Below, piece by piece: positions 23,065 to 26,908 of a stretch of 33,837 bases of DNA; position 1 is the first letter of the stretch; the number at the start of each line of letters is the position of its first letter. The stretch covers positions 1 to 33,837 of IMG/VR virus record IMGVR_UViG_3300044675_004552, one strand, 5' to 3'. The notes beneath the pieces were generated by a model, which made no database searches, was not told the DNA's origin, and worked only from the letters and a program-made list of their open reading frames with translations. Source of the stretch: a virus. The translations under genes were made by a program, and so were the position numbers.

Positions 23065-24573
23065 ATGATATTTGGTTCTGCTATTCTCGCCACCGCGTTG
23101 TTGTTAAGCATGGTGGCTGCTTATTACTCAGTAGCCGGATTGGTGGCCATTTTCAGTGCGGCAACCATTCCGGTTATCATCATGGGCGGCAGCCTGGAAC
23201 TGGGTAAGATTGCAGCTACAGTATGGTTGCACAATAACTGGAAACGTGCTGGTTGGGCGTTCAAGTTTTATCTTGTGCCTGCTGTGGCTTTTCTCATGAT
23301 ACTGACTAGTATGGGTATCTTTGGATACCTGTCAAAAGCACACAGTGACCAAAGTCTAGTGAGTGGCGACGTACAAAGCAAAATTGCCATCTACGACGAA
23401 AAGATTCGAATAGCAAAGGACAATATAGATGCGAACCGGAAGGCGCTTAAACAGATGGATGAAGCTGTGGACCAAGTTATGGGTCGAAGCAGTGATGAAA
23501 AAGGTGCCGACAAAGCTGTTGCAATCCGGCGAGCACAGCAAAAAGAACGTGCAAGACTTCAATCCGAGATTGCGGCCGAACAGAAAACAATTGCCGCCGT
23601 TAGCGAAGAACGTGCGCCGATCGCTGCCGAGGTTCGTAAGGTTGAAGCAGAAGTAGGCCCAATCAAATACATTGCAGCCTTGCTCTACGGTGACAATCCA
23701 GACACCAATCTGCTAGAACGTGCAGTGCGTTGGATGATCATAATGATTGTGCTGGTGTTTGACCCATTGGCTCTGTGTCTAATTCTAGCAGCCAACAAAC
23801 AGTTTGAGTGGGCTCGACAAGGCACCGGAGGCTTTGTACATGATGAGCCCAAATACGAGCCCGACGACGGTCCGCTAACACAAAAACAAGTTGATCAAAT
23901 CCAACAATCTGTTACCGCATTTCAAACAGACCAGCTTGATGATCCTATACCTTGCTACAAGTGTAGTACGCCACTAGTTGACGCTCCTGGTATTGGTCTA
24001 TTCTGTCCTAACCGTAAATGTGATGTTATGGACAATGTTAAAGGTGAAGATCCCATTGAGTTGTCAATTTCCACTCAAGAGATCTCAAGCATAGAACAAC
24101 CTAGCGACCATGTAGAACTACCCGATGACTATTGGGATCACGAAGCAGAAAATCAAATCAAAGCCGCTATTACAAAATGGAAAGCTGATAATCCTCACGA
24201 TACCTTGAAGAATCAACGTTTCAAACTAATCCGGGGTGAAATTTCTCAGTTGCCTTGGATGGGGTTACTAGCTGACAACGAGTCAAGAAAAGAGATAAAC
24301 AGTGGGTTTGGTACACAGTTTCCATCACATGCCGAACGTGGCGATACCTTTGTAAGAGTTGACCGTCTGCCCACTATGGTCTATAAGTACAATGGTAAAG
24401 ACTGGATAGAAGTTGACAAAAATCTAACAGATAGTTATACTTACGATATTGCTTATATTGATCACTTGATAGAGCGCATTGCATCTGGCGAGTATGATGC
24501 TGAACTATTAAGTGAAATCGAGCGTGAGCAAGTGTCCCAACGTTTACAATCAAATACAAATACAAACACATGA
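23065..24573 (+). CDS. membrane protein with coiled coil and zinc ribbon
   Basis: A 502-residue protein in four parts. Residues 1-95 hold three transmembrane segments, with the conserved GGSLELGKIAATVWLHNNW between the second and third. Residues about 105-205 are a charged coiled coil. Residues about 221-244 are a fourth transmembrane segment (MIIMIVLVFDPLALCLILAANK). Residues about 297-320 (CYKCSTPLVDAP, then FCPNRKC) are a four-cysteine zinc ribbon. The C-terminal part (GDTFVRVDRLPTMVYKYNGKDWIEVDK) is a beta module seen in other aquatic phage proteins. It overlaps clpX by 4 bases. A similar architecture occurs in aquatic T4-like phages without known function. Confidence 0.65.
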   Translation: MIFGSAILATALLLSMVAAYYSVAGLVAIFSAATIPVIIMGGSLELGKIAATVWLHNNWKRAGWAFKFYLVPAVAFLMILTSMGIFGYLSKAHSDQSLVSGDVQSKIAIYDEKIRIAKDNIDANRKALKQMDEAVDQVMGRSSDEKGADKAVAIRRAQQKERARLQSEIAAEQKTIAAVSEERAPIAAEVRKVEAEVGPIKYIAALLYGDNPDTNLLERAVRWMIIMIVLVFDPLALCLILAANKQFEWARQGTGGFVHDEPKYEPDDGPLTQKQVDQIQQSVTAFQTDQLDDPIPCYKCSTPLVDAPGIGLFCPNRKCDVMDNVKGEDPIELSISTQEISSIEQPSDHVELPDDYWDHEAENQIKAAITKWKADNPHDTLKNQRFKLIRGEISQLPWMGLLADNESRKEINSGFGTQFPSHAERGDTFVRVDRLPTMVYKYNGKDWIEVDKNLTDSYTYDIAYIDHLIERIASGEYDAELLSEIEREQVSQRLQSNTNTNT

Positions 24574-25787
24574 AATCAAATGATCAAATCACATCCTGCA
24601 GTTTTTGTGGAAAACACAAAGATGTTGTGGCTAAACTTATTGTAGGTGAAGGTGTTGCCATATGCAATGAGTGTGTGGAGCTATGTGAGACATTGCTGAA
24701 AGATGAAAATTTTGCCGGTACAGTTAGTTCTCCTGTTGTGATGGATCCTGAACACATAAAAAATCATCTAGATCAGTATGTGATTGGTCAGGACCGTGCC
24801 AAACAGGTACTAAGTGTAGCAGTTGTAAATCATTACAAACGCATTAGTAATCCAGACACTGACACTGAAATTGAAAAGTGTAACATTCTCATGCTTGGCC
24901 CAACAGGGTCCGGCAAAACATTGTTGGCACGTAGTGTAGCACGTTACTTGGATGTACCGTTTGTGATTGCTGATGCCACAAGTCTTACTGAAGCAGGTTA
25001 TGTAGGTGATGACGTTGAGAGCTTGATTTCTAGACTGTTTGCCGCATCAGGTGGTGACATTGCCAAAACACAGCGTGGTATTGTGTTCATTGACGAAATT
25101 GACAAGATCAGCCGTCGTAGTGAAAGTGCTTCAATCACTCGAGATGTTAGTGGTGAAGGTGTACAACAGGCCTTGCTTAAACTGGTAGAAGGCACCAAGT
25201 GCAGAGTCACTCCCACGGGCAATCGCAAGCATCCTAGTGGTGACATGATTGAGATTGACACCACCAACATCTTGTTTATTGCTGGCGGTGCATTTGTGGG
25301 GCTTGATGCAGTGGTAAAAAATCGTGTGCGTGGAACTTCGATTGGTTTTAGTGCCAGAGTCAAGGATGACACAGAAACACACCTGGACCAAGTCACACCA
25401 GAAGACTTGATCAAGTTTGGTATGATTCCAGAGTTTGTTGGGCGATTCCCTAGCTGGGTTGCACTTAACGAACTCAGCAAAGAAGATCTAATCCGCATCT
25501 TGCTGGATGTCAAGCACAGTTACATTGCACAATACTCTTGGTTGTTCGAACAAGACAAAGTAGAACTAGAATTCAGTGCAGAAGCCTTGGAAATGATTGC
25601 AGATCGCACTATCTTAAACAAAACTGGTGCTAGAGGTTTGCACAGTGAGCTAGAACGTGTGTTACTCCCCCATATGTTTTATTTGGCCCGTTATCGTAGG
25701 GAAGGAGTAAACCGCGTGTTTATTGATGCAGATCAGGTAAATACCCCTACAGAACTAAAGGAAGCAAATGGAAAAGCTAAGGGGTAG
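24570..25787 (+). CDS. clpX: ClpX, AAA+ unfoldase
   Basis: A 405-residue full-length ClpX (E. coli 424). Zinc-binding domain: C10, C13, C32, C35. Walker A GPTGSGKT (110-117), Walker B with D175-E176 (FIDEIDK), pore-1 loop GYVG (143-146), RKH loop (219-221), sensor-2 arginine R355 in GAR. The ClpP-docking loop I258-G259-F260 is intact, so it should work with host ClpP; no clpP is in the window. Expected role: unfolding and delivering chosen proteins to ClpP, redirected for the phage, or remodelling complexes without proteolysis. It overlaps the gene before by 4 bases and bS21 by 20. Confidence 0.96.
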
Positions 25788-25992
25788 ATCAGTACTGGTC
25801 ACAGACGGTAACGTAGACAAAGCTCTACGTAAATTTAAAAAGAAAATTCAGACATCGGGCATCTTGGATGATGTTCGTGCCAAAGAATTTTACGAAAAAC
25901 CCACTACAGAACGCAAACGTAAAAAATCTGCCGCCGCTAATCGCTGGCGTAAAAAACTAGCCGAACAAGCCTTGCCCAAAAAACTTTATTGA
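25768..25992 (+). CDS. rpsU: ribosomal protein bS21
   Basis: A 74-residue protein that matches bS21 over its length: [19 protein letters not shown], then the family signature [14 protein letters not shown], and the typical C-terminal LY. bS21 sits on the 30S platform near the anti-Shine-Dalgarno and assists initiation. Phage-borne bS21 is known from pelagiphages and other aquatic viruses, where replacement of the host copy is proposed. The ATG at 25768 follows AAGGAAG and overlaps the clpX end by 20 bases, so the two are co-expressed. Confidence 0.95.
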
Positions 25993-26007
25993 TAATGAGT
26001 TTTCGTG

Positions 26008-26080
26008 TATAATAAATAAACATGTAGTGCCCATGGTGGGGCTACATTATTAGTCATCTTGCTTATAAAGGAGAAAACAA
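26008..26080 (+). promoter_or_regulatory. hsp20 promoter region and ROSE-like RNA thermometer candidate
   Basis: TATAAT (26008-26013), with a weak -35 TTTATT (25985-25990) at 17 bp, would start a transcript near 26020; ATAAATA (26012-26018) also fits a late-type motif. The leader of about 61 bases opens with a strong hairpin: ATGTAG (26022-26027) with CTACAT (26042-26047), plus inner CCCA/TGGG. Then TTGCTT (26059-26064) faces AAGGAG (26068-26073), with a central G-G opposition, across a 3-base loop. ROSE thermometers before heat-shock genes hide the Shine-Dalgarno with exactly such a U(U/C)GCU segment. Confidence 0.6.
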
Positions 26081-26539
26081 ATGACAAAAACTCTCACCCT
26101 TCGTTCTTTCGACATTCCCGCACTCACCAAATTTGGTATCGGTTTCGATAACATGTTTGATGAACTCATGCGTGTGAGTGCTCAACAATCCAGCACAAAC
26201 TATCCACCTTATGATATTGTACAAGTCAATGAAGACGAGTACATGATCTCAGTGGCAGTGGCCGGCTTTGGGCATGATAACCTTACAGTGACCAAGGACA
26301 AAAAATTCTTGATCATTGAAGGCAAGCACAGCCGTGAAACTGTGGAGAATGACGATGCCACTGCAAAATACCTGCATAAAGGTATTAGTGAAAGAAGTTT
26401 CCGCAGAGAATTCCAACTTGCGGATCATGTGGAAATCAGCAATGCTCACCTTGAACTTGGTATTTTAAGCGTTCACTTGCGACGTGAAGTGCCTGAAGAA
26501 GCCAAGCCAAAGACTATTGCTATCACATACACTTCATAA
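26081..26539 (+). CDS. small heat-shock protein, Hsp20/IbpA family
   Basis: A 152-residue protein with the alpha-crystallin domain at about 42-140. Marks: NYPPYDIV (domain start), EYMISVAVAGF, SFRREFQL, the GILSVHL motif (G-x-L) and the C-terminal IAI (I-x-I) that binds neighbouring subunits in oligomers. It holds unfolding proteins for refolding by DnaK/ClpB and may protect capsid or replication proteins. hsp20 genes are common in T4-like cyanophages. The ATG at 26081 follows AAAGGAG, which lies in the thermometer candidate described above. Confidence 0.95.
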   Translation: MTKTLTLRSFDIPALTKFGIGFDNMFDELMRVSAQQSSTNYPPYDIVQVNEDEYMISVAVAGFGHDNLTVTKDKKFLIIEGKHSRETVENDDATAKYLHKGISERSFRREFQLADHVEISNAHLELGILSVHLRREVPEEAKPKTIAITYTS

Positions 26540-26580
26540 TATAATAGTGTAAATACAGTAGGGACGCGGTGTCCCTACTG
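26517..26580 (+). promoter_or_regulatory. clpS promoter with 5'-end hairpin
   Basis: TTGCTA (26517-26522), 17-bp spacer, TATAAT (26540-26545); the late-type GTAAATA (26549-26555) overlaps. CAGTAGGGAC (26556-26565) pairs perfectly with GTCCCTACTG (26571-26580), loop GCGGT. No T-tract follows, so this is not an intrinsic terminator. The hairpin would sit at the extreme 5' end of the clpS mRNA and may stabilise it. Confidence 0.55.
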
Positions 26581-26596
26581 ATTACAAGGAAACAAA

Positions 26597-26908
26597 ATGG
26601 CACAAAGCGAAACCAAAACTAGAATCAAACCTTTAGAATCTGTGCAAGAGCCTCCCTTGTACCGTGTGGTCTATCTCAATGACAATCAAACCACATATGA
26701 ATTTGTGGTAGAAACCTTGATCGAATACTTTGACTACACTACAGAAACCGCAGAACAGATTACCGTAGACATTCACGAAGCAGGATCAGCTGTGGTGGCA
26801 GTACTACCATATGAGATTGCCGAACAAAAAGGTGTGGAAGTGACCATGCTGGCACGAGCTCAAAGTTATCCACTACAGATCAAACTAGAACCAGAACCTG
26901 TTGGTTAA
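26597..26908 (+). CDS. clpS: ClpS, N-degron adaptor
   Basis: A 103-residue ClpS. The N-degron pocket region is LNDNQTTYEFV, with N28, D29 and N30 (E. coli N34, D35, D36), followed by H60 (E. coli H66). Thus the second aspartate is replaced by asparagine, and the gate position M40 appears to be tyrosine (Y34). The rest matches the family through LARAQSYPLQIKLE. ClpS delivers N-degron substrates to ClpAP, and inhibits ClpA on SsrA substrates. The phage copy could alter the choice of host substrates. The start follows AAGGAAAC. Its stop overlaps the convergent phosphoesterase stop. Confidence 0.93.
   Translation: MAQSETKTRIKPLESVQEPPLYRVVYLNDNQTTYEFVVETLIEYFDYTTETAEQITVDIHEAGSAVVAVLPYEIAEQKGVEVTMLARAQSYPLQIKLEPEPVG

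Follow-up and report, generated by a model that had tools for sequence, protein, structure and literature searches.

The ibpA thermometer of Pseudomonas, the nearest validated system to the element described here, is a leader of 61-62 nucleotides (nt) with two hairpins, in which deletion of a bulged G locked the switch; heat control requires only its second hairpin, and no melting is seen in hairpin I (PMC3669281). What the upstream hairpins of ROSE thermometers do is, according to the same report, not fully understood. In E. coli, the small heat shock protein (sHsp) IbpA represses its own mRNA, binding its own 5' untranslated region via Arg93 with Tyr34, and as to how an sHsp chooses its mRNA only binding to structured RNA has been suggested (PMC10474464). 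Phage thermometers on record include those of lambda cIII, SPbeta blyA and a fourU element before a sigma70 gene (PMC11182007). Here we analyze the leader of the hsp20 gene in IMG/VR record IMGVR_UViG_3300044675_004552, virus DNA whose whole stretch of 33.8 kb (33,837 nt) is called the window. The papers searched contain no described phage ROSE element, and a preliminary description of this DNA knew of none either.

Like the Pseudomonas ibpA thermometer (PMC3669281), the window leader precedes an sHsp gene and has two hairpins within about 61 nt, the first of them stable, with a U(U/C)GCU motif and a bulged G facing the Shine-Dalgarno (SD) sequence. It differs in being carried by a phage, in having a putative late-type promoter and not a sigma32 promoter, and, within the clade of the window, in pairing the start codon as well; phages also have variants with A as both bulged bases, and have the element before dnaK and groES too. 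The layout is shared with the Rfam families ROSE, ROSE_2 and ROSE_3, and the consensus of ROSE_3 has AUGCC..GGGU and CUCGCU..GGAG. Lambda cIII, SPbeta blyA and fourU resemble it in being leaders of phage mRNAs for which a response to temperature is presumed or demonstrated, but they are not of the ROSE type and serve other genes. From the comparisons given below, the window leader is probably a two-hairpin ROSE-like translational control element, both bulges of which the phage Hsp20 would bind, thereby repressing its own mRNA and those of other chaperones.

Architecture and conservation of the leader

The features of the leader and its gene, with the basis for each, are as follows.
26008-26019, plus strand: promoter-like stretch TATAATAAATAA, also compatible with a T4-type late promoter NATAAATA (read directly)
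26022-26047, plus strand: hairpin 1, with outer stem AUGUAGU/GCUACAU, inner stem CCCA/UGGG and motif 5'-UGC/5'-GG (minimum free energy fold, covariation)
26029, plus strand: G bulged from hairpin 1; phages with Thr at the aligned Hsp20 residue have A here (comparison)
26053-26085, plus strand: SD hairpin, GUCAU/AUGAC (with the start codon) plus CUU(G)CUU/AAGGAG (sequence, fold, conservation)
26058-26064, plus strand: anti-SD strand CUUGCUU, the ROSE U(U/C)GCU motif (conservation in relatives)
26061, plus strand: bulged G of the SD hairpin (co-varies with 26029)
26068-26073, plus strand: SD sequence AAGGAG (read directly)
26081-26539, plus strand: hsp20, small heat shock protein of 152 amino acids (profile matches)
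26261-26263, plus strand: codon of Ala61, equivalent to IbpA Ala54 (context AV-A-GF), whose identity follows that of the bulged base (alignment)

A TATAAT at 26008-26013 would place the transcript start at about 26020 and so give a leader of about 61 nt (element 26020-26085), and TATAAATA-like sites lie at the equivalent place in the leaders of relatives. The leader length and the preceding stable hairpin (26022-26047) thus agree with the preliminary description. TTGCTT lies opposite the SD AAGGAG as that description had it, and is kept in near relatives, but the central "G-G opposition" it proposed is more aptly described as a single bulged G, since CUUGCUU and AAGGAG pair as C-G, U-A, U.G, bulged G26061, C-G, U-A and U-A. 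Pairing is also possible between GUCAU (26053-26057) and AUGAC (26081-26085), the GUCAU part being conserved only in the near clade.

The leader folded only modestly better than its shuffles (z -1.99); folding of the single sequence is therefore no proof of structure, and the proof comes from comparison, which confirms a two-hairpin arrangement of the ROSE type at the hsp20 start. The arrangement is retained in the 80 closest viral relatives, picked by protein alone, though linker and hairpin stems vary. CUUGCUU is kept in 79 of these, and the exception, L054, carries the alternative version of the ROSE motif, UCGCUU. One pair of near-identical contigs, L006 and L007, has AAAGAAG and AAAGGAG as SD, which may be a variant or a sequencing error. 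A distant set, also chosen by protein, had UYGCU opposite the SD in 76/79 viral and 79/80 bacterial hsp20 leaders. Isolated phages that have the element include the cyanophages P-SSM2, syn9 and S-PM2. The reverse test was a blind scan of 2.9 million viral contigs for TTGCTT-AAGGAG-ATGAC, in which 104 of 120 matches were hsp20 starts; a control with one base changed (TTACTT) gave 15 of 120 at hsp20 starts, seven of them containing TTGCTT or TCGCTT. Across 40 diverse phage leaders, 95.4% of cells in hairpin 1 were paired, compared with 24-43% for slid partners, and both sides had changed in 9 of its 11 pairs. Around the bulge of this hairpin 5'-Y(G)C/5'-GG is kept, that is, U.G or C-G, the bulged G, and then an invariant C-G. 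The conservation of the motif and the covariation of hairpin 1 bear out the preliminary description on this point. When the bulged G of the SD hairpin was removed in silico, the probability that the SD is unpaired fell from 0.50 to 0.06 at 25 C.

The features found are those of the ROSE-like class, namely U(U/C)GCU facing the SD around a bulged G, a stable upstream hairpin and relatedness to bacterial elements. R1, a covariance model built from the phage leaders, detects alphaproteobacterial hsp20 leaders, those of SAR11 type included, with E values down to 8e-11, and the Bradyrhizobium leader L397, which has the same hairpin 1 motif, is a full match to RF00435 (69.2 bits). Sub-threshold ROSE_3 matches lie at the correct place in several phages, the best scoring 34.9 bits where the gathering score is 43. 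Because R1 finds bacterial leaders, L397 matches RF00435 and the ROSE_3 matches are rightly placed though sub-threshold, the element is, by these sequence comparisons, ROSE-like in layout and descent and lies outside any Rfam ROSE family. It is scarcely credible that the leader instead senses a ligand in the manner of, for example, freshwater-2 RNA (RF02980): this was its best weak Rfam match, but its 23.6 bits fall below the gathering score of 49.9, the match rests mainly on the SD tail, and hairpin 1 aligns poorly, so that this already disfavored candidate was rejected. A fourU thermometer was also set aside, the strand opposite the SD being CUUGCUU and not four U.

The bulged bases, Hsp20 residue 54 and the dnaK leaders

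Both hairpins of the phage leaders bear one bulged-base motif, 5'-YGC/5'-GG, and the same is true of the E. coli ibpA and Bradyrhizobium leaders and of a Pseudomonas-type ibpA leader (L823). Where phages have TTACTT, the bulge of hairpin 1 is also A. An automatic parser called 252 of 306 distinct viral leaders G,G (G bulged in both hairpins) and 19 A,A; some leaders were misread, for example TTACTTGCTT as TTACTT, and were corrected by eye. When the remainder were read by eye, genuine mixtures among leaders with both hairpins readable were confined to L560 (G,A) and L127 (A,G). The Hsp20 tree has three changes of the SD bulge, each on a branch shared with a change in hairpin 1; one of them is a return to G,G in L649, which is placed within the A group by well-supported branches. 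Many A-type leaders (for example L532 and L725) resemble longer ROSE elements in having a third hairpin, GGGCAUAGUGCCC, in the middle, after hairpin 1 and before that of the SD.

The residue equivalent to IbpA Ala54, here called position 54, is the sole Hsp20 column that changes on all three branches where the SD bulge changes. With G,G leaders (264) it is Ala in 257 and Ser in 7, and with A,A leaders (24) it is Thr in 23 and Ser in 1; it is Ala in the revertant L649 and Ser in the mixed-leader L560. Since the residue had been picked out post hoc, it was therefore tested on new data. Seventy viral loci with YxIx(I/V)AVTGF were found regardless of their leader, and 62 of them were Hsp20; 56 of these 62 Thr Hsp20 loci had not been used previously, some being other records of phages already in the set. 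The anti-SD base was A in 62/62, and the hairpin 1 bulge was A wherever the locus extends that far. As in E. coli (PMC10474464), an sHsp gene has a ROSE leader, and the essential Arg93 and aromatic Tyr34 of IbpA are kept in phage Hsp20: Arg or Lys and Tyr or Phe occupy the equivalent positions in every viral Hsp20 sequence of the G,G and A,A types, and Tyr41 and Arg105 of the window Hsp20 align with Tyr34 and Arg93. The phage case differs in that the binding itself, the base read by the protein and the additional chaperone targets are proposals.

A search with R1 of 31, then 44 phage records located the leader of hsp20 in almost every one and, in many of them, another site, which precedes dnaK, groES (PF00166, 1.2e-32) or a protein of about 90 amino acids with no Pfam family. 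In L758 and L818 the element stands before a phage groES gene. The protein of about 90 amino acids (MFTADAFIDTVQTGKK...), found behind the same ROSE-like leader in large phages (L754-L757, L759, L760, L762-L765 and others), by eye recalls phasins. Among 30 records of Thr phages, TTACTT/TCACTT sites were mostly paired, one at hsp20 and one at dnaK about 2 kb upstream, and TTGCTT occurred once. The bulges of the dnaK leader were A,A in 22/22 Thr phages, G,G in 8/8 readable Ala phages, the revertant L649/L800 among them, and mixed A,G in 2/2 Ser phages. It looks, from these sequences, as if Ser at position 54 were permissive for either base. Because the separate dnaK leader tracks Hsp20, a reader acting in trans is argued for. 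Bacterial-type IbpA also turned up in some records labeled "phage" (Campylobacter, Salmonella and the "UNVERIFIED" Pseudomonas Y7), and these look like host DNA.

These data bear on three other explanations. The near-constant identity of the two bulged bases of one leader would be expected if they touched within one RNA, G+G or A+A preserving the contact; such a contact does not predict dnaK leaders that switch with Hsp20, the tracking by residue 54 or the mixed leaders of Ser phages, and it was set aside on the dnaK leader data as very improbable. In a plain RNA thermometer only the SD hairpin would matter and would be melted by heat, hairpin 1 protecting the 5' end or aiding folding, much as hairpin I of Pseudomonas ibpA is dispensable for heat control (PMC3669281). 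A scaffold hairpin, however, need not retain YGC/GG while its stem varies freely, nor need its bulge go over from G to A in step with the SD hairpin, Hsp20 residue 54 and the dnaK leader, and we consider this explanation unlikely. The preliminary description of a ROSE-like leader before a phage hsp20 stands as to layout, conservation and continuity with bacteria, and overlooks that hairpin 1 is more than a stable support. Lastly, another trans-acting factor, a host or other phage protein, might read the leaders while Hsp20 residue 54 merely travels along, as could happen when phage genes are linked, independent events are few and the scan is limited to Hsp20. We regard this as about equally unlikely: residue 54 keeps following the bulges when they revert and is Ser in phages with mixed leaders, and IbpA, a related sHsp, is already known to bind ROSE leaders (PMC10474464).

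Proposed control by Hsp20 and its significance

In the mechanism that we favor, binding of both bulges by Hsp20, the SD hairpin would hide the hsp20 ribosome site under low stress; the pairing is observed, and the repression is suggested by Pseudomonas ibpA. Free phage Hsp20 would bind the leader by recognizing the bulged purine that hairpin 1 and the SD hairpin each display; the residue equivalent to IbpA Ala54 would set the preference for G or A, as its observed co-evolution with the bulges suggests. Heat would loosen the second hairpin and misfolded proteins would draw Hsp20 off, so that translation would occur when the chaperone is needed. Feedback by Hsp20 is proposed in addition to heat because hairpin 1 repeats the bulge motif and co-varies with an Hsp20 residue, and because the element also stands before dnaK and groES. 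The elements observed before dnaK, groES and the small gene in related phages would form a phage chaperone regulon. With somewhat less confidence than for the mechanism above, we think it probable that this regulon (hsp20, dnaK, groES and the small gene) is run by the phage's own sHsp reading a bulged purine displayed twice, Ala corresponding to G, Thr to A and Ser to both, and that the first hairpin of ROSE serves as a second docking site.

Several results weigh against this proposal. The Rfam models for ROSE (RF00435), ROSE_2 (RF01832) and ROSE_3 (RF02523), which the preliminary description had named for a check, gave no match in the window at E values up to 10, and the gathering score of ROSE_3 was reached in 0 of 33 phage records. 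The energy model gave no clear temperature switch for the window leader between 10 and 50 C; it gave none for the proven E. coli ibpA element either, and for that reason energy folding was not used as evidence on heat sensing. The scan for co-varying residues covered Hsp20 only, and the bulges were called by eye in about 35 leaders plus the dnaK leaders. A careful tree left three independent concordant pairs, so few that a sign test was not significant, and a single origin of A,A was not rejected (approximately unbiased test, p 0.099). Thr54 occurred in none of 398 Pseudomonadota genomes, which leaves no bacterial counterpart for a check.

The identity of the window Hsp20 was given by profile searches of the reading frame at 26081-26539 (PF00011, 6e-16; phrog_432, 3.7e-39), and its fold is confirmed by an AlphaFold2 model (mean predicted local distance difference test score 71) and a structure search that matched AgsA (4zja) and a cyanophage sHsp (7ck4). 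The gene is flanked by a ribosomal S21 gene on one side and clpS on the other, with a ClpX-like gene further before, and 24570-26908 on the plus strand is a protein-quality cluster of ClpX-like, ribosomal S21, Hsp20 and ClpS genes. Sinorhizobium phage Phosso (L476) likewise has hsp20 and clpS near each other. Between hsp20 and clpS in the window, at 26556-26580 on the plus strand, lies a 10 bp hairpin CAGTAGGGAC-GCGGT-GTCCCTACTG, 3' of another TATAATAGTGTAAATA; it is without the bulge motif and may stabilize the clpS mRNA at its 5' end.

In many aquatic phages, several of the phage's own chaperone genes are preceded by this one RNA control element. Because the co-evolution names bases and one residue, both the role of the upstream hairpin of ROSE and the choice of mRNA by an sHsp become testable by point mutations.
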